Of a stretch of 10,907 bases of DNA, positions 2,459-10,847 are shown in pieces. The notes under the pieces are model-generated. The model did not search any database. It saw only the letters and a program-made list of their open reading frames with translations, and was not told where the DNA came from. Source of the stretch: Pavlovales sp. CCMP2436 (taxonomy: Eukaryota; Haptophyta; Pavlovophyceae; Pavlovales); the NCBI GenBank assembly GCA_026770615.1, contig MU631456.1, positions 98,720-109,626 on the forward strand. The letters are read 5' to 3'. Made by a program: the position numbers and the translations under genes. Each line of letters begins with the position of its first letter. The stretch's first letter is position 1.

Positions 2459-3058
2459 CTAGTCGGTGTGTTGCTCCTGTGCGAGCGGCGGTGGCGGTCG
2501 GTGTATCGGCTTCGGGCGAGTATTCGAGGTTGGGGTCGGGGTCGGGGTTGGAGTTGGGGTTGGGGCCAGCTTCGCGTGCGCCTTCGCCTTTGGCGCCTGC
2601 GTCTGCTTCTCTGTCGCCGCCTTTACCGCCTTCGCCTTAGCCGCCTTCGCCTCAGCCGCCTTAGTCCTCTTTTCCTGAGCCGCCGCGTTGTCTGCCGCCT
2701 GATTCGCCTTGTTCTTGGCTTTAAACTGCCTCTCCCTGATCAGCGCCTTGTGCTGCGCCTCTGCCGCCTCTGCCACCTTGGTCAGCAGCGCATCCGCAGC
2801 CCTTCCCGCCGCCGTCTCTTCCTCAGTCGCCTTCCGCCGCGCGGCCGCCTTCTCTGCGGTCTCCTGCTGCTCGGCCGCGTGTTTAGCCGCGTCGAGCAGC
2901 AGCGTGAGCGCCTTGTCAGCATCTCCCTTGGCATCGTCGTACGCCACCTCGGCGAGAGAGTGGTCAATTCTTGCTGCCTGAGCAAGGCACGCCAACACCG
3001 CGTCGCGTGGTGATAATGGCGGCTTCTCCTCGGAGATCAGCGCCGTCGTCGACATCAT
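2459..3058 (-). CDS. Ala-rich coiled-coil protein with UBA-like N-terminus
   Basis: A 199-residue frame starts MMSTTALISEEK and ends LAQEQHTD before TAG. Residues 16-58 resemble a small three-helix UBA/CUE fold, a family that usually binds ubiquitin: the third-helix pattern GDADKALTLLL is typical. Residues 59-155 are Ala/Lys/Glu/Gln-rich and should form a long charged helix or coiled coil. The C-terminus (159-199) is disordered, with a PT repeat and a PPPP run. No membrane segment or signal peptide is seen. The start is preceded by a pyrimidine-rich stretch ending CCCACAG right before CGATGATG, a good splice acceptor, so there may be an upstream exon and the true N-terminus may differ. The opposite strand is also open but gives less natural protein. 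The UBA assignment is by pattern only. Confidence 0.55.
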   Translation of the reverse strand: MMSTTALISEEKPPLSPRDAVLACLAQAARIDHSLAEVAYDDAKGDADKALTLLLDAAKHAAEQQETAEKAAARRKATEEETAAGRAADALLTKVAEAAEAQHKALIRERQFKAKNKANQAADNAAAQEKRTKAAEAKAAKAKAVKAATEKQTQAPKAKAHAKLAPTPTPTPTPTPTSNTRPKPIHRPPPPLAQEQHTD

Positions 3059-3387
3059 CGCTGTGGGCGAAGTGGCGGGGAGCGGAGAGGGCGAAATTGC
3101 GCGGAGCTGTGAGCTCTGGTTGCGCCAAGGTTTGGCGCGCCAGAGCTCGGAGCGCCCGCAGGACCGGTCAGCGAGGAATCCACGGGCGGCGATCGGGCCG
3201 GCATGGTCGGGGAGCGGTCGCCCTCTCCCCCGTCTCGCTGTTCCTTGTACTGCGGCTGCTTCGTGAAGAAGACTTGAGTCTCCACACCGTCCACCTTCAC
3301 GTTGACGCCTGTGACACCGGGCTTGATCACGTGTTGCCGCTGAATCGCGAGGACCGTCTGCGTCTGCTTCATCGCCCGCTGCATCAC
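3055..3387 (-). CDS. Hypothetical short frame or 5' exon upstream of the UBA-like gene
   Basis: A 110-codon frame begins MMQRAMKQTQTV. Its stop overlaps the start codons of the UBA-like gene. Residues 1-45, including VNVKVDGVETQVFF, read like real protein with GC-ending codons; the rest is Pro/Ser/Ala-rich. A possible donor (AAG then GTGGAC) lies inside it, and a pyrimidine-rich acceptor lies at about 3060, just before the downstream start. The first part may therefore be exon 1 of the same gene and the rest an intron. The one phase I could test at that donor runs into a stop, so the exact junction is unresolved. It could also be a chance frame. I do not recognise a domain. Confidence 0.3.
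   Translation of the reverse strand: MMQRAMKQTQTVLAIQRQHVIKPGVTGVNVKVDGVETQVFFTKQPQYKEQRDGGEGDRSPTMPARSPPVDSSLTGPAGAPSSGAPNLGATRAHSSAQFRPLRSPPLRPQR
3111..3148. repeat. Long imperfect hairpin near the UBA-like gene start
   Basis: GAGCTCTGGTTGCGCCAA pairs with TTGGCGCGCCAGAGCTC, interrupted by a one- to two-base irregularity and a loop of about 3 nt. It sits 50-90 bases upstream of the start codon at 3058, either in an intron or in the 5' leader. Confidence 0.55.
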
Positions 3388-3548
3388 TTCGCGCGATGCG
3401 ACGGAATGCAGCTTCTACTCAGAGGTCGGGGCGCATGTTCCGAGCTCTCCGAGGGCGACGTCGTCCACCGCAAATTTGTCGATATTATTATTTATATTAG
3501 CGGCTCAATGATTCAACAGGTGGTGTTCACTCACTGACTTGGTCGTCG
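3388..3548. other. Short spacer between minus-strand genes
   Basis: A GC-rich part (3388-3476) gives way to an AT-rich stretch (3480-3505) with TATTATTATTTATATTAG. It may hold the promoter of the upstream frame at 3387 or the 3' end of the cysteine-rich gene. No specific signal was identified. Confidence 0.3.
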
Positions 3549-3844: not shown

Positions 3845-4138
3845 TCACCTGATCGCCTCCTCCGGATGGAGCTCCAGGACGTCTTCGTGCGCGCACGGTG
3901 GGAATGTCTTCTTGCAAGTCTCCCTCGCCTGGGCGCACACCTTGTCGCAAGACTCGCGCACCTTGCCGGGCAAGAGGGCGCATCCCTTGGTGCATACATC
4001 AAATACTGGGTCGCACGCGTCCCTTGGGCACGGAGGGGCGCGCGGGCTGGCCTGCACCTCCTCGAGTGCCGTGACCGGGACCATCGCCACCATGAACGTG
4101 AGGACGGCGAGCGCAAAGAGCCGCGAGCGGGGCGCCAT
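3845..4138 (-). CDS. Small secreted eight-cysteine protein
   Basis: The frame encodes 97 residues. Residues 1-25 form a classic signal peptide: a basic start (MAPRSR), a hydrophobic core (LFALAVLTFMVAMV) and a cut site near VTA. The mature part has eight cysteines spaced C-x4-C-x6-C-x3-C-x10-C-x3-C-x6-C-x6-C. The central C-x3-C-x10-C-x3-C, symmetric with flanking x6 spacings, fits a disulfide-stapled helical hairpin of the kind seen in plant alpha-hairpinins. No enzyme motif is present. The start has a good context (GACATGG). The last codons run through AG|GTGAGG, a consensus donor, so the stop at 3845 may be intronic and coding may end at 3849 and continue in a later exon. The role is unknown; a secreted or vacuolar structural or defence peptide is possible. 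The family link is only by spacing. Confidence 0.6.
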   Translation of the reverse strand: MAPRSRLFALAVLTFMVAMVPVTALEEVQASPRAPPCPRDACDPVFDVCTKGCALLPGKVRESCDKVCAQARETCKKTFPPCAHEDVLELHPEEAIR

Positions 4139-4185
4139 GTCGAGGGCGAGACGCCGGGGCGTCGGTCGGAGAGGACGTCCAGGGT

Positions 4186-4196
4186 GTTTTTAAAAG
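4186..4196 (-). promoter_or_regulatory. TATA-like box of the cysteine-rich gene
   Basis: Read on the minus strand this is TCTTTTAAAAAC, 48-58 bases before the start codon at 4138, in otherwise GC-rich DNA. Position and composition suit a TATA element with a short leader. Confidence 0.45.
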
Positions 4197-5649: not shown

Positions 5650-5909
5650 CCAGAGCCCTCCCCCACTTCCCCCACCTCCCCCACTGCGGCGTGCTGGCAC
5701 CCGCACCGCCACCAAGCGCCTCCCCACCGGCTGATGCGGCGTAGCCCTGCTGCTGCTGCGTCTGCGTCTGCTGCTCTTGCTGCGCCTGCGCCTGCTGCTG
5801 CGGGAGCATTCGCGCTGCGACGAAGCTAAACTCCATCTTCGCGTCCGTACCCACGAGGTGCGCGCGCGTGCCGAGCAGCATGGCGCAGAGCGCGGCGGTC
5901 TGAGGGGAC
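5650..5909 (-). CDS. Kinase exon 7: Q-rich tail (3' limit uncertain)
   Basis: The acceptor TTCCTCAG at 5910 joins in phase to exon 6. The exon encodes SPQTAALCAMLLGTRAHLVG, then MEFSFVAARML and a Gln-rich stretch encoded by repeated CAG. Downstream the frame stays open to 5063 but drifts into Gly-rich and then simple repeat sequence. A donor such as GGGAG|GTGGGG near 5665 is plausible, and the true end is unknown. Confidence 0.4.
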
Positions 5910-7562
5910 CTGAGGAAGGTATGAATTAATTTATGATTATAATTTCTAATTTATAATTCTAATTTATAATTTATAATGTATAATTTATAATCTATTTTAT
6001 GATTTGTGATTTATGATTATAATTATGATTATGGTTATGATTATGATCATGATCATGATTATAATTGCGATTATTTATTATTCATCATTATTATGATTTT
6101 GTGTTTGTACCCCGAGAGTTCGAGTGTGGCCGCGGCTTTGAGCACTCGCACCAACGCACCGCGTAGCAGCAAGGCGGGGGAGGGGCAGGGGTAGGGGGAG
6201 GGGAGCGTCCCAGAGGCGCCATGCTGCTCGGCGAGTGGGAGGAGGGCGAGGAGTGGGAGGAGTGGGGGGAGTGGCGGCGGAGGGGGAGAGGGAGATGGAG
6301 GGGGCAGCACGCGCGACCACCACGCCTTGACCTCCTCACCGTAGGACCACCCCTCCTCCTCCTCCTCGGCCGAAGCGAGCGAACCGGACAGCATGTGCAA
6401 GGGGGGCAGGGGAAGGCCTGCCTGCGCCTCTGCCGCCTCTGCCAATGCCTCTGGGTGTGTGAGCGAGAGCGCGGCGTGTGCGAGGAAGTTCAGCTTGGCC
6501 GTGACCACCCTCTTGCGCAGCTCCCTGTGAGTGTGTGCGGGTGGGGGGTGGGGGGGGTGTGGGTGCGTGCGTGTGGGAGGGGGGATGTGGGTGTGCGTGT
6601 GCGTATGTGTGGGTGGGTGAGGATGTGTGTGTGTGAGGGGGGGGGGGGGGGGGGGGGGGGGGGTGAGAGGGATTTGGGTGTGCGTGTGCGTATGTGTGGG
6701 TGGGTGAGGATGTGTGTGTGTGAGGGGGGGGGGGGTGTGGGTGTGGGGAGGTGGAATAATAACAATAACCTGACAACAGTAACTATAACAGCAGCAACAA
6801 CAACAACAACAGTAACGACACCGGCAACAACAGCAGCAGCGTCAGCAGCAGCTACAACAACAACAACTACTATTACTATTACTACTACTACTACTACTAC
6901 TACTAGCGCGCACCTGCATTTGCTGAGCGAGGTGTCTGCGAGTCCCATTTCGGCGAGCAACGCATCCCACGGCAGCGCACCCACCGCACACGCAACTATT
7001 AATAATAATTGTTAGCTATTTAGGTTTAGTATTTAGGTAAGTTATGAAGGTTAGTTATTTGTCTGAGTAATCTACATCTTAAATTCATAACTTGCACACA
7101 TAACACCCACCGCACACGCAACTGCAATTATGAGTTGTTGCAGTTGAAGTGATGTGTGCTCAAGTTTCTCAGCCTGTTTTCTTTTCTAAAGATCGGCCCT
7201 CCGAGGGCCGTCCGAATGAAATGAAACAGGAAAATAGGCTGGCAAGTTTCAAGATTTATGATGTAAATTACTCAAATAAATAAATAACCTCAATAATTCA
7301 AAATTGCGCGCGCAAGTGATCGGCAGGGGAGGGAGGGGTGTAAACGGAGGGGGAGGGGGATCACACCGAGGAGTGATGTGAAGGGGAGGGCTTGACGGGG
7401 GGAGTGCGAGATGCACCTGTCACGAATGCGGCACCGATCACATCATCGCGCGGTGCGAGGGGAGCCGAGCCGAGGTGGGGCGAGGAGAAGCGAAGGGTGC
7501 CCGACCTGCACACATACACACACACACACATATATATATATTATATATGCACACATACATAC

Positions 7563-7596
<34 letters not shown>

Positions 7597-7692
7597 GTAT
7601 ATGTGTGTGTTTATATGTGGCCAGTAGATATAAATATCTACTGATACATATGTATATATATATATATATCAGTATATATATATATATATCAG

Positions 7693-7725
<33 letters not shown>

Positions 7726-9391
7726 GTGTGTGTGTTTATATATGTCCAGTAGATATAATTAATTAATTAGTTACAAATTAAGAATAAGAATACAGCAGAA
7801 ATACGAAGAAGAATAGAAATAAGAGCCGAGGTGGGGCGAAGCGTAGCGGAGAGTGCCCGAGCTGCAAACACATAATATTAAGAGCCGAGGTGGGGCGAAG
7901 CGTAGCGGAGAGTGCCCGAGCTGCGAACACATAATATTAGTCTTATATGTGATTTAGTAATGTCATTATTACACGCGGGTATATTTTCAGATTCACATAA
8001 GCGACTTTCAAGTAAGGTGACCCGCGCATAATGAAGAAGAGCAATTATAAGAACAATTACAACAACAAAAACAAAAAAAAAGACAATGATACTCGCCTGT
8101 CCTGAGGCTGCGAGCGCACCGGCCGCGGCTGCGAACTTGAAACACCCGCACTCACAGGCAGCCTGCTCTCGGGGTATTGTCGCAAAAAGGAGAGTCCGGA
8201 AAGGGAAAGTCAGCGGAGGAAAGTGAGAAGGGACGGCAGAGGAGGGGGACGTTCCCCTCTCAAAAAAGAAAGAACTATTATTAAAAAAGGGAAGTCATAG
8301 GGGGAAGAGAGGGGAGAGAGGGGAGAGGGGGGGGAGAGAGAGGGGAGGGGGGGGCGAGAGAGGCGAGAGAGGGGAGGGGAAGGGCAGGAGAGTGGGCGGA
8401 CTTACGCAGAAGTGGGCAGCCGCTCGCTGATTCCAAAGTCGACCAGTCGAAGCAGCGCACCGTCGGGGTGTGCCGCCTGCCCGCCACGGGGCAGGAGCAG
8501 GTTGGCGGGAGAGATGTCTCTGTGTGCATAGCCGCGCGCGTGGCAGCAGGAGACAAGTCGCAGGACCTGGGGGGGGGGGGAGAAGTTAGGCAGGGCATGT
8601 GAAGGGCATGACTGCGGGCGCGAACTCCGCAGCTGTTGCCTGGACGTAACGCCTGTAAGTACTCATGAAAAAAAAAAGGACCCCTGAGTTCGTCCACACA
8701 CTGGATTCGCTGACCGCCACTGCTGCCTGTATCTCTATTAAGTAAGTCGTACCCCCATAGTTGAACAAAAAAAGGACTCTCTCACCTCCGCGCCGAGTAG
8801 CAAGGCGTCCGCCGCAGAGAAGCGACCACCAGGAGCCAAGGCGAGGTGGCGGTTGACGCTCGGGCCGCAGAGCTCGCCCGCGAGTGCCTCGAGCGCGTCG
8901 GGCCCCACGTTGCGCAGGTGTGCGTGCAACCACGGTAGCCCGCCGCCCGGGAAATTTCCGGTCGCCTGCAGCGCCGCCCAGACCACGCGGTCGTTGAAGA
9001 GCTGCCCCCCTCTCTTAGCCACCTTGATGCACACGCGCCGGGCGTGGCGCTCGGACCAACCGGCGTAGACCGAAGCCTGCCCTGAGTCGGCGTCGGCGAG
9101 GCGGTCGCTCTCGCGCCACCAGTAGGTGCCCTCCCAATCCTCGCCGGTGACGACTGTCCAGCCGTCCTTGCCGTCCGCCGCCGGAGGCTGCTCGTCCAAA
9201 GGATCTCTTTTATCCTCCTTTGGCTCCTCCCCATCCGCCTCGTCGCTCGGCCGAGGGCGCTTGGCGGAGGGCGCGGCGGCGCGCAGCTTCGCGCGCCGCC
9301 ACTCGAGCCATGCGAGTTGCGCGCCCGTGTAGCACACGGCCGCTCCCCAGACCGCCACCGCCGCCGCGAGCCCGAGCGCCGGGGCGTCCAT
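5909..9391 (-). CDS. CK1/VRK-group protein kinase with N-terminal membrane anchor (spliced; C-terminus unresolved)
   Basis: Seven in-phase exons are proposed: 9391-8786, 8566-8406, 8162-8097, 7505-7417, 6995-6914, 6524-6111 and one starting at 5909. Residues 5-28 are a hydrophobic segment followed by WRRAKLR, a signal anchor. Residues 36-78 are a charged linker. The kinase domain follows. The glycine loop is poor (about 98-111). VCIK gives the ATP-binding lysine K123. GQLFND puts Asp134 where the helix-C Glu is expected. LCGPSV at 174-179 resembles the CK1 LGPSL signature. HRDISPAN (217-224) keeps catalytic D219 and N224 but has Ser for the usual Lys. DFG is at 245-247. [11 protein letters not shown] (280-290), RDD (297-299) and LPW (315-317) follow. 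Spacings from RFS to NLLL, and from RDD to LPW, match VRK and CK1 proteins, which supports the splices. APLAPRD is closer to VRK than to CK1. It is divergent and may be a weak kinase or pseudokinase. It shares a promoter region with the BAF-like gene. Confidence 0.75.
5930..6090. repeat. AT-rich low-complexity intron 6
   Basis: Repeated variants of AATTTATAAT (5935-6000) are followed by alternating TTATGAT and GATCAT words (6005-6065). The tract fills the proposed intron between exons 6 and 7 and contrasts sharply with the GC-rich exons. Confidence 0.7.
6111..6524 (-). CDS. Kinase exon 6: C-lobe end and Pro/Glu-rich tail
   Basis: The acceptor CACTCACAG follows a C-rich tract. The exon continues [20 protein letters not shown], then an acidic stretch (AEEEEEGW), a Pro/Leu-rich run and [16 protein letters not shown]. 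The proposed donor is GTACAA at 6110, in phase with exon 7. The Pro-rich middle, or GTGAGG after TCCTACG, could mean an extra intron inside. Confidence 0.5.
6540..6745. repeat. GT/poly-G tract with an 87-bp duplication
   Basis: GGATGTGGGTGTGCGTGTGC at 6583 and GGATTTGGGTGTGCGTGTGC at 6670 begin two almost identical units with an 87-base period. Each ends in a G run; the first has 27 G (6637-6663). The tract lies in intron 5. On the coding strand it is C-rich and provides the pyrimidine tract for exon 6. Confidence 0.8.
6770..6905. repeat. AAC/AGC/ACT triplet repeats in intron 5
   Basis: Runs of CAACAACAACAACAACAG, CAGCAGCAGC and TACTACTACTACTACTAC succeed one another. They make long accidental open frames on both strands (Thr-rich on plus, Val-rich on minus). 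Confidence 0.75.
6914..6995 (-). CDS. Kinase exon 5: LPW segment
   Basis: The acceptor is the weak TTAATAG and the donor is GCAG|GTGCGC. It encodes [20 protein letters not shown] then TSLSKC. Joined to exon 4 it gives [20 protein letters not shown] followed by W, the same RDD-to-LPW spacing as CK1 and VRK family members. A 20-nt copy of its acceptor edge lies upstream at 7104-7123. Confidence 0.7.
7104..7123 (-). repeat. Decoy copy of the exon 5 acceptor edge
   Basis: The 20 bases CACCCACCGCACACGCAACT are identical to 6978-6997, which contain the AG and the first 18 bases of exon 5. On the minus strand the copy is preceded by ATTGC, giving TTGCAG, a better acceptor than the AATAG of the functional copy. 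If used, the frame reads [16 protein letters not shown] and stops. Confidence 0.75.
7162..7248. repeat. Nested hairpin in intron 4
   Basis: An inner perfect stem, CGGCCCT-CCG-AGGGCCG (7194-7210), is flanked by outer arms CAGCCTGTTTTC (7170-7181) and GAAAATAGGCTG (about 7230-7241), which pair with one mismatch. It lies between exons 4 and 5. Confidence 0.5.
7417..7505 (-). CDS. Kinase exon 4: GTLRF/RDD segment
   Basis: The acceptor is TGTGTGCAG and the donor ACAG|GTGCAT (phase 1). It encodes [20 protein letters not shown] then DVIGAAFVT. This corresponds to the end of the activation segment and helix F start in CK1/VRK kinases. Its first 40 or so bases have two diverged copies upstream in intron 3. 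Confidence 0.7.
7508..7760. repeat. CA/TA microsatellite block in intron 3
   Basis: (CA)n and (TA)n runs include a duplicated module ending in TTTATATGTGGCCAGTAGAT at 7611-7630 and TTTATATATGTCCAGTAGAT at 7735-7754. CAGTAGATAT (7622-7631) pairs with ATATCTACTG (7634-7643) as a perfect 10-bp inverted repeat. Confidence 0.8.
7821..7938 (-). repeat. Two 59-bp tandem units carrying copies of kinase exon 4
   Basis: Units 7821-7879 and 7880-7938 differ at a single base. On the minus strand each reads GTGTT(T/C)GCAG, a strong acceptor, followed by a 40-base relative of exon 4 that encodes [13 protein letters not shown]. Against exon 4 there are silent changes and two replacements (F to Y, S to A). 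From 7920 the frame stops at TAA (7878-7880). From 7861 it runs 17 codons past the copy and stops at 7771-7773. Both enter in the same phase as exon 4. They look like truncated alternative exons or decoys. Confidence 0.8.
8097..8162 (-). CDS. Kinase exon 3: activation loop insert (GC donor)
   Basis: A 66-nt exon is bounded by GAGAGCAG on the 5' side and by ACAG|GCGAGT on the 3' side. It enters and leaves in phase 2. It encodes a Ser/Pro/Gln-rich stretch ([20 protein letters not shown]) between DFG and the GTLRF motif. The preceding intron end is only weakly pyrimidine-rich, and a GTGAGT inside the exon could act as an alternative donor, so this is the least certain of the first six exons. Confidence 0.5.
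8283..8390. repeat. Polypurine/polypyrimidine tract in intron 2
   Basis: More than 100 bases consist almost only of G and A on the plus strand (GGGGAGAGAG units), hence C and T on the coding strand. Mirror-like repeats here could form triplex DNA; as RNA they make a long pyrimidine tract. Confidence 0.7.
8406..8566 (-). CDS. Kinase exon 2: catalytic loop and DFG
   Basis: The acceptor is CCCCCCAG after a C-rich tract; the donor is GTAAGT after TCTGC (phase 2). It encodes [18 protein letters not shown], then SPANLLL and LVDFGIS. These are the HRD catalytic loop and DFG metal-binding motif of a protein kinase. The junction with exon 1 keeps phase 0. Confidence 0.8.
8786..9391 (-). CDS. Kinase exon 1: membrane anchor and N-lobe
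   Basis: The exon holds 202 complete codons from ATG at 9391 to GCGGAG, followed by the donor GTGAGA (phase 0). It encodes the hydrophobic anchor, the charged linker and the kinase N-lobe through [12 protein letters not shown]. Reading into the intron gives VRESFF and a stop 15 codons later. Continuation in exon 2 restores a helix-E/catalytic-loop segment of normal length. Confidence 0.75.
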
Positions 9392-9678
9392 CGATGGGCT
9401 TTTGGAGTCGGCGACCAGACGGCGACTCGGAGCCGTCCACTGGCGGAGCTCTTGGTGGCGGAGCTACGACGGCTGTGTCGGTGGCGGAGCTCTCTAGTGT
9501 GGTTGCGGCTTGCGAGCGGTTCAATTCAAGGGGAGGGGGGGCCGGGCGTTGGGAGCGACTTCCATCGTGATTTTGCAGCTCTGCTGCCAGGCCCTCCAAT
9601 ACAGCGCCGAGCCGTCCTTGTCCGGCAGCTCAGCGAGTCCGCACCCGAGCCCAACCCGCGCCGAGCCCAGCCCGCGCC
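9392..9678. promoter_or_regulatory. Divergent promoter region, kinase and BAF-like genes
   Basis: This 287-bp interval separates the kinase start (minus, 9391) from the proposed BAF-like start (plus, 9679). It contains three exact copies of TGGCGGAGCT at 9441, 9456 and 9482, and no clear TATA box. The 5' leaders of both genes must lie here. Co-regulation through shared elements is an inference. Confidence 0.5.
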
Positions 9679-10441
9679 ATGGCCGGCGCCAACGAGACCG
9701 AGGTCTACATTCTACTGCCCACTGCCTTCTGCCCACTGCCTGCTGCCCACTGCCTGCTGCCCATTGCTGCCCACTACCTGCCGCCCACTGCCTGCTGCCC
9801 ACTGCCTGCTGCCCACTGCTGCCCACTGCCTGCTGCCGGCTCACCGGGCTGACCGCAGCACAACCCCGACCCAATTCCGTTCGCAGGTAATGCGTCGCTT
9901 CGGCAGGGAGCCGCTCTCCGCCGAGCCGCTGCGTCCCGGCCTCGTGCCGGGCATCGGAGCGGTGGGCGCGCAGAAGCTCTTGAGCAAGGGCGTCGCCTCG
10001 GCGCAGCAGCTGATGGGGCGCTTCCTCCTCTTCAACTGCTCGGTGGACAGGTTTATGGCCGACCTCAAGGACGCTGGCATCACATTGCACTGGGCACAGC
10101 AGATCGCCGACGCGCTCGCGGCCAAGGCGGTGGGTTTCTGCACGGACGACGCCCCCGAGTACCCGACCTCCCCCACCAAAGGCACAGACGGCAGAACCAC
10201 CACCGTCTCGGAGTCCTTCGCGCGCAGCCCGCTGCCCACCACCACGCTCGTGCCGTCGCAGGTGCCCGGCCTGGGGAAGGCGGGCATCAGCTGCGTGCGT
10301 AAGGCCATCCTCAAGATGGCCCCCACGCTGCACCCGGCCACCCCCTCGGCGGTGCAGCTCCTCGGCCTCTTCCTCTCGCTCGGCCGAGTGCGCGAGAGCT
10401 ACCTCAACTTCCTCGTCGACGAGTGCGGCTGCCAGCTGCAG
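9679..10441 (+). CDS. Tandem BAF-like domain protein (spliced, 3' incomplete)
   Basis: The proposed exon 1 is 9679-9702 (MAGANETE, start context GCGCCATGG). Intron 1 is 9703-9886, ending TTCGCAG. Exon 2 is 9887-10441. Together they give 193 residues. Domain 1 (about 13-93) has FGREPLSAEPL, then VPGIGAVGAQKLLSKGV, a helix-hairpin-helix, and LMGRFLLF, DRF and a Trp-containing helix. Length and key glycines match animal barrier-to-autointegration factor, a dimeric DNA-bridging protein of chromatin and nuclear envelope. Domain 2 (about 117-193) repeats it: VPGLGKAGISCVRKAILKM, QLLGLFLSLG and SYLNFLVDE. Its last helix is missing, so another exon must follow; CAG|GCACGC at 10442 is a possible GC donor. 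The intron 1 donor (GTCTAC) is weak, so translation might start at 9890 instead. BAF is usually one short domain, so the tandem form is unusual. Identity to animal BAF is low, so function is inferred. Confidence 0.7.
9715..9837 (+). repeat. 14-bp minisatellite in the BAF-like gene intron 1
   Basis: Seven 14-bp units of CTGCCCACTGCCTG type alternate with two 10-bp units lacking the last four bases. The array starts 12 bases after the proposed donor and ends about 50 bases before the acceptor. It is open in all plus frames, which creates a misleading long reading frame through the intron. Confidence 0.85.
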
Positions 10442-10847
10442 GCACGCACCTCCCCCTATTACATCCGCCTATTAAATCTCCCCCTATTCTGTGGCTGCCA
10501 ACTGCAGGCACATTTCTGGACATTTACACATTTCTGTGGGTGCCAACTCCAGGCACGCACCTCCCCCCCCGCCCCGCCCCTCCGCCCCCTCTTCTGTGGC
10601 TGCACGCACTTCCCCCAACCATTGTCTAGAAATGTGGCTGCCAACTGCAGGCATGTTTCTTTGTATTTGCACATTATTTTCTAGTTATTTTACACAGTTC
10701 TACACAGTATATTACTGTGACACATTTCTATATATTGACACATTTCTATATATTGACACATCTCTATATATTTACAAATGTCTAGATATATTCACATAAT
10801 GGGTCGAGTAGGGGGCTGCCGACTGCAGGCATGCACCTCCCCCTATT
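10424..10847 (+). repeat. Dispersed copies of the BAF-like exon 2 end
   Basis: TGCGGCTGCCAGCTGCAGGC at the exon end (10424) recurs as TGTGGCTGCCAACTGCAGGC at 10490 and 10633, TGTGGGTGCCAACTCCAGGC at 10535, a shortened form at 10594, and GGGGCTGCCGACTGCAGGC at 10812. Copies at 10424, 10535 and 10812 are followed by (C/T)GCACCTCCCCC; those at 10490 and 10633 by CA(T)TTTCT-like sequence. All are on the plus strand. Confidence 0.75.
10720..10800 (+). repeat. 18-bp AT-rich tandem repeat
   Basis: CACATTTCTATATATTGA occurs twice exactly, then as diverged copies (CACATCTCTATATATTTA, and AATGTCTAGATATATTCA). Related words occur at 10510-10535 and at about 4271. It lies in presumed intron 2 of the BAF-like gene. 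Confidence 0.7.

Follow-up and report, generated by a model that had tools for sequence, protein, structure and literature searches.

Emerin-type proteins are tail-anchored proteins of the inner nuclear membrane whose LEM domain binds BAF. BAF is described as a metazoan protein in two papers (PMC8053085, PMC10099716); the first also reports that in animals VRK1 phosphorylates BAF at Ser4 and then at Thr3, with Ser4 phosphorylation held responsible for the lost DNA affinity of the protein (PMC8053085). Lamins, according to PMC9512039, are absent from plants and unicellular eukaryotes. Here we analyse a head-to-head pair of genes, encoding a BAF-like protein and a protein kinase, in the haptophyte alga Pavlovales sp. 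CCMP2436, whose genome comprises 119 Mb in 703 contigs. The pair lies in a stretch of 10,907 nucleotides (contig MU631456.1 of assembly GCA_026770615.1, positions 98,720 to 109,626 of the forward strand), hereafter the window, to which all coordinates refer.

BAF homology, an internal duplication, hydrophobic segments in both proteins, resemblance of the kinase to the CK1 group and the head-to-head position are all observed for this gene pair. Our preferred reading, in which our confidence falls a little short of even, is that a tail-anchored tandem BAF tethers DNA to a membrane, with the linked membrane kinase as a possible threonine-directed regulator. In the open-licence literature, which gives no proof of absence, we found no paper on haptophyte BAF, on PF02961, or on the evolutionary origin of BANF1 or VRK1. 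No algal BAF homologue is reported in the available text of the open-licence papers found, and nothing on BAF outside animals appears in the accessible parts of PMC12607486 or of protist-evolution papers.

A tandem BAF-domain protein with a hydrophobic tail

The BAF-like gene begins at ATG 9679 on the plus strand and the kinase gene at ATG 9391 on the minus strand, 287 bp apart, and both start codons match database proteins (P0001 for the BAF-like product, P0006 for the kinase). The divergent intergenic region (9392-9678; 287 bp, 68% GC) is a putative shared promoter, so named from this distance only. An earlier sequence-only reading had proposed just such a head-to-head pair, with this start spacing and in a non-animal eukaryote, and had named the plus-strand product a tandem BAF-like protein to be checked by profile search. 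The spacing and orientation hold, the organism is a haptophyte alga, and the identity is borne out by the SAM_BAF profile (PF02961, curated cut-off 25 bits), which scores 46.1 bits for P0001 and 40.9 bits for the part inside the window (repeat 1). Across the whole 119-Mb genome the same profile gives a single match, to repeat 1, at 37.9 bits.

The protein is also internally duplicated. The full-length proteins P0001-P0004 each contain two SAM_BAF stretches at E<=1, and repeats 1 and 2 align to each other by hhalign with a probability of 98.7 (E 1.6e-16, 33% identity). P0005, which is without repeat 1, reaches only 12.5 bits, and the window portion of repeat 2 taken alone, in which the exon ends within the repeat, is not matched by any Pfam model at E<=1. 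The protein has the BAF fold. P0001 continues beyond the window to a hydrophobic, membrane-type C-terminal tail that the sequence-only reading could not have seen. Because of its two repeats and this tail, we regard the product as a BAF-domain protein rather than a BAF of animal architecture. Five of 416 candidates in the protein search matched at E<=1 (P0001-P0005); the D. lutheri member, KFE25_004354, is deposited as hypothetical. A paralogue search with P0001 against its own genome gave one further weak place (E 0.013), which is not convincing.

P0001 has 291 residues and is identical to all 193 residues encoded in the window; a transcript origin is very likely, since it crosses a splice and none of its source contigs exceeds 1224 bases. 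It begins with the residues MAGANETE of exon 1 (9679-9702, plus) and is spliced across intron 1 (9703-9886, GT-AG, 184 bp) into exon 2 (9887-10441, plus), which encodes the remainder of repeat 1 (residues 9-93; 9887-10141) and most of repeat 2 (residues 109-193 inside the window; 10187-10441). P0001 places the end of exon 2 at 10441, from which the gene runs on past the window; as HAERTV follows there in P0001, the donor is fixed as CAG|GC, and the next intron would be of the GC-AG type if its acceptor is AG. The flanking sequence examined reads N, and gene parts outside the window are known from database proteins alone. As a separate observation, the last 15 bases of exon 2 together with the first three of the intron (GGCTGCCAGCTGCAGGCA) recur four times in that next intron (10427-10831; recurrences at 10493, 10538, 10636 and 10814, with up to 4 substitutions), a repeated exon-intron junction that could be a source of decoy splice donors.

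Nine repeats (four first and five second) were aligned to human BAF; the sequences are related, so these are not nine independent observations. Phe10, Gly25, Gly27, Gly47 and Leu63 of human BAF are kept in 9/9 repeats, which thus all have the helix-hairpin-helix Gly25-x-Gly27, and the Lys33 position is basic in eight of the nine. For sequence-independent binding of double-stranded DNA and for dimerisation the residues are mixed, as these are mostly retained and Lys6 is lost. The Ser4 position is Thr in every repeat, which makes a kinase-substrate relation more plausible; in the window it is occupied by Thr7 (codon 9697-9699, plus, in exon 1; placed by alignment and ungapped extension) and, in repeat 2, by the second residue of Thr112-Thr113, which fall at the Thr3-Ser4 positions. 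At the Thr3 position itself, the second repeats have Thr (5/5) and the first repeats Glu or Gln (4/4). Leu58 is lost in all nine, which fits a protein that has no need for LEM; an L58R mutation was used in a study of BAF-LEM binding (PMC10668030).

A CK1-like kinase with an N-terminal hydrophobic segment

Phase-based splicing of the kinase gene yields six exons, of which exons 5 and 6 are less certain. Exon 1 (8786-9391, minus) carries an N-terminal hydrophobic segment (approximately 9311-9385), the motif KRPR (9251-9262) and the N-lobe, and exon 2 (8406-8566, minus) the HRDISPAN catalytic loop and DFG. Spliced together, these two are identical to P0006 (T492DRAFT_871682 of this same organism, 256 residues), a deposited protein that stops at the exon 2/intron boundary (8406-9391, minus), while the rest of the kinase domain lies in further exons. 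Exons 3 to 5 align with P0007-P0009 and supply the activation segment and LPW motif together with some of the C-lobe. Exon 3 (7417-7505, minus; GTLRF...PRDD) was placed by splice sites and phase and matches P0008 residues 263-296; exon 4 (6914-6995, minus) and exon 5 (6111-6524, minus; C-lobe, with a long Pro-rich stretch and less sure boundaries) were placed by phase and alignment. Exon 6 (5790-5909, minus) is tentative, with a weak alignment to P0007-P0009 whose approximate limit sets its low end. One kinase intron also holds two tandem 59-bp copies (7820-7939) with 98% matches.

By sequence, the kinase is of or near the CK1 group. The spliced product of 389 residues scores 36.7 bits with Pkinase (cut-off 31.7). 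When a profile of three rows (P0008, P0007 and P0006) was compared with PDB and the best 60 of 128 matches were examined, CK1-delta came first at 59.8 bits, ahead of CK1-epsilon (59.2), CK1-alpha (54.0), TTBK1 (43.3), CK1-gamma (at best 37.5) and VRK (at best 34.6). The top 55 of those 60 were CK1, TTBK or VRK (59.8-29.7 bits), with two filed as 'protein kinase' counted as CK1 by their place beside a YCK2 row, and the next was MELK at 26.4 bits. The sequence-only reading had called the enzyme VRK/CK1-like. Its CK1 half stands, and VRK as a specific label is rejected on the grounds of the higher CK1 and TTBK scores and the absence of the HGD and DYG of VRK1, in whose place stand HRD and DFG. 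The tree it had suggested, with CK1, VRK and TTBK (11 rows; long-branch joins flagged; four of eight inner branches open), separates the four kinases of this family as one long-branched clade; by path length, TTBK1 and CK1-delta are its closest neighbours, and grouping with VRK1 is not rejected by the approximately unbiased test (p 0.10).

The catalytic residues Lys115, Asp212 (HRD), Asn217 and Asp238 (DFG) of P0008 are invariant in the family alignment. P0008 residues 82-135 include an invariant NDRVVW block at the place of the CK1 alphaC Glu, and the glycine loop there is a mere remnant; the nucleotide-binding lobe of the family is, from its sequence, unusual. Protein searches for kinase relatives scored only the ~8000 candidates with most words in common: the whole spliced kinase gave three hits and missed D. 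lutheri, and the P0008 core region gave seven (itself, P0007, P0009 and four other kinases) and found it. A paralogue search with P0008 against its own genome added two weak places (E 0.03 and 0.29), neither convincing.

Of the membrane anchor proposed for the kinase by the sequence-only reading, the N-terminal hydrophobic segment is supported: all four known members of the family, among them the one encoded here, have it, at a modest hydropathy of 1.6-2.1, and the kinase is probably a single-pass membrane protein. Downstream of the segment come a basic stretch and KRPR (KRSR in D. lutheri), in which we see a likeness to a nuclear localisation signal. Under the positive-inside rule, the catalytic domain would face the cytosol or nucleoplasm, as would the BAF repeats.

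Linkage, mechanism and alternatives

In D. lutheri, the BAF gene KFE25_004354 and the kinase gene KFE25_004344 lie on contigs of equal length (259,598 bases), presumably one and the same contig, and would be ten tags apart if tags run in genome order. This genome is given 14,446 genes in PMC8379373, and the chance of finding a random gene no more than ten tags away is about 20/14,445, which favours inherited linkage, though not head-to-head pairing. Of the sequence-only expectation that the pair would stay together in a related genome, then, apparent linkage survives and the head-to-head arrangement does not, provided that tags follow gene order. Such linkage is compatible with selection and with plain gene-order conservation alike, and does not separate the two.

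In the mechanism that we prefer, the two BAF domains in one chain would probably pair intramolecularly, standing in for the obligate BAF dimer, and bridge or clamp double-stranded DNA. The C-terminal tail would fix the protein in a membrane, most likely the endoplasmic reticulum (ER) or nuclear envelope, leaving the BAF domains in the cytosol or nucleoplasm. DNA would thereby be tethered to the membrane directly, the tail replacing the LEM-domain partner that animal BAF needs. Sharing that membrane, the kinase may phosphorylate Thr7 and Thr112/113, which include the Ser4-equivalent residues, and weaken the hold on DNA in the manner of VRK1, a plausible release switch by analogy with animals. 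From their hydrophobic segments, both proteins are predicted to insert in a membrane, the nuclear envelope being the likeliest among several ER-continuous membranes. A LEM search of the genome found nothing at E<=1, with weak controls in which only two archaea matched, below the cut-off; MSC, Sad1_UNC and HeH likewise gave no match there, with no control genome matched either, so that absence is not established for any of the four.

Several points weigh against this picture. Going by their tags, the kinase and BAF genes would not be adjacent in D. lutheri. Good-scoring fold matches of the BAF-like protein are confined to repeat 1, with Foldseek E-values of 0.07-0.18, none <0.001. Stretches inside the kinase domain reach a hydropathy of 1.4-1.6 in three of four members, against the modest 1.6-2.1 of the N-terminal segment, and the membrane could be one other than the nuclear envelope. 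Kinase exons 1-2 alone match bacterial PknA (28 bits) much as they match CK1 (27.6), and the structure model of the kinase, at a pLDDT (predicted local distance difference test) of 44.9, is too poor to use. The glycine loop is degenerate and Asp replaces the alphaC Glu, so kinase activity is not certain. The sites around Thr7, moreover, presumably differ from the classic CK1 consensus.

The most serious alternative, credible though we lean against it, keeps the BAF-like protein as a membrane-chromatin tether and makes the kinase an unrelated neighbour, held there by inherited gene order and acting on other substrates. It draws on the distance of about ten tags, without head-to-head pairing, in D. 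lutheri and on the placement of the kinase clade apart from CK1, TTBK and VRK on its long branch; it is opposed by Thr at the Ser4 position in 9/9 repeats, by the conserved hydrophobic segment in both proteins, and by a closeness within ten tags that chance would give in only ~20/14,445 cases.

That the BAF domains have lost DNA binding and now serve as a helix-hairpin-helix scaffold for protein-protein contacts seems improbable. Lys6, which we take to be a DNA contact in human BAF, is indeed lost in 9/9 repeats (Val, Thr or Ile instead), the Lys72 position is basic (Arg or His) in the first repeats only, and in repeat 2 neither it nor the Arg75 position is basic, except for Arg at the latter in P0004; the changes at Lys6 and Lys72 count against our preferred reading too. 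Gly25 and Gly27 are nevertheless retained, as is a basic residue at Lys33 in 8/9 repeats. Equally unlikely, in our view, is a foreign-DNA trap on ER-type membranes, for instance against the large DNA viruses of haptophytes, from which the kinase would release the protein: the tail would suit a cytoplasmic trap, and poxviral DNA entering animal cells is bound by BAF, which a poxviral kinase counters (PMC4063967), but viral contigs gave no confirmed relative of either protein and so showed neither a viral counter-kinase nor a viral copy. A viral origin is rejected on the same scans (31 stretches with the BAF alignment and 33 with the kinase alignment, 0 confirmed). Contigs of prokaryote genomes scanned with the BAF alignment gave 38 stretches, of which 0 were confirmed.

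Elsewhere in the window, a minus-strand open reading frame (3845-4189) has a signal-peptide-like start and is Cys-rich, without a Pfam match at E<=1. Also on the minus strand, a long Ala/Lys-rich open frame contains MMSTTALISEEKPPL (2459-3063); the whole frame (2459-3418) is without a Pfam match above cut-off.

Comparison with known systems

The kinase shares with CK1 and TTBK the G-x-LPW, RDD, H-x-G after GT and 'LxGxS' motifs and its best profile scores, and two of its three relatives (P0008 and P0009) also have PDY. It differs from them in its N-terminal hydrophobic segment, KR-P/S-R motif, degenerate glycine loop, alphaC Asp and separate clade. The VRK family are fellow CK1-group relatives, and VRK1 phosphorylates Ser4 and Thr3 of BAF (PMC8053085), whereas the algal kinase has HRD and DFG and lacks most of the extra segment before beta4 of VRK1. 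If the kinase does phosphorylate the tandem BAF, regulation of BAF by a kinase switch would extend well beyond animals, and the origin of the switch would be directly testable in an alga. A broader proposition, which we put forward as doubtful, is a self-contained, membrane-integral, LEM-independent BAF system of a non-animal lineage, in which a linked membrane kinase of or near the CK1 group would regulate a tandem BAF with a tail anchor of its own; it would be either an ancient form of BAF in eukaryotes or an independent redeployment in haptophytes.

With animal BAF (BANF1, PF02961), the algal protein has in common the fold, the helix-hairpin-helix GxG hairpin, Phe10, Gly47, Leu63 and a phosphorylatable residue at Ser4. 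Animal BAF is an 89-residue, single-domain soluble protein, whereas the algal one, at 291 residues, is built of two repeats plus a hydrophobic tail at its C-terminus and is without Lys6 and Leu58. Like emerin-type proteins, it has a single hydrophobic segment at its extreme C-terminus and would link DNA to a membrane; unlike them, it bears BAF domains itself instead of a BAF-binding LEM domain. A BAF that anchors itself in a membrane would represent an alternative wiring of the same components, in which DNA binder and tether are fused in one chain rather than divided, as in animals, between BAF and a LEM protein.
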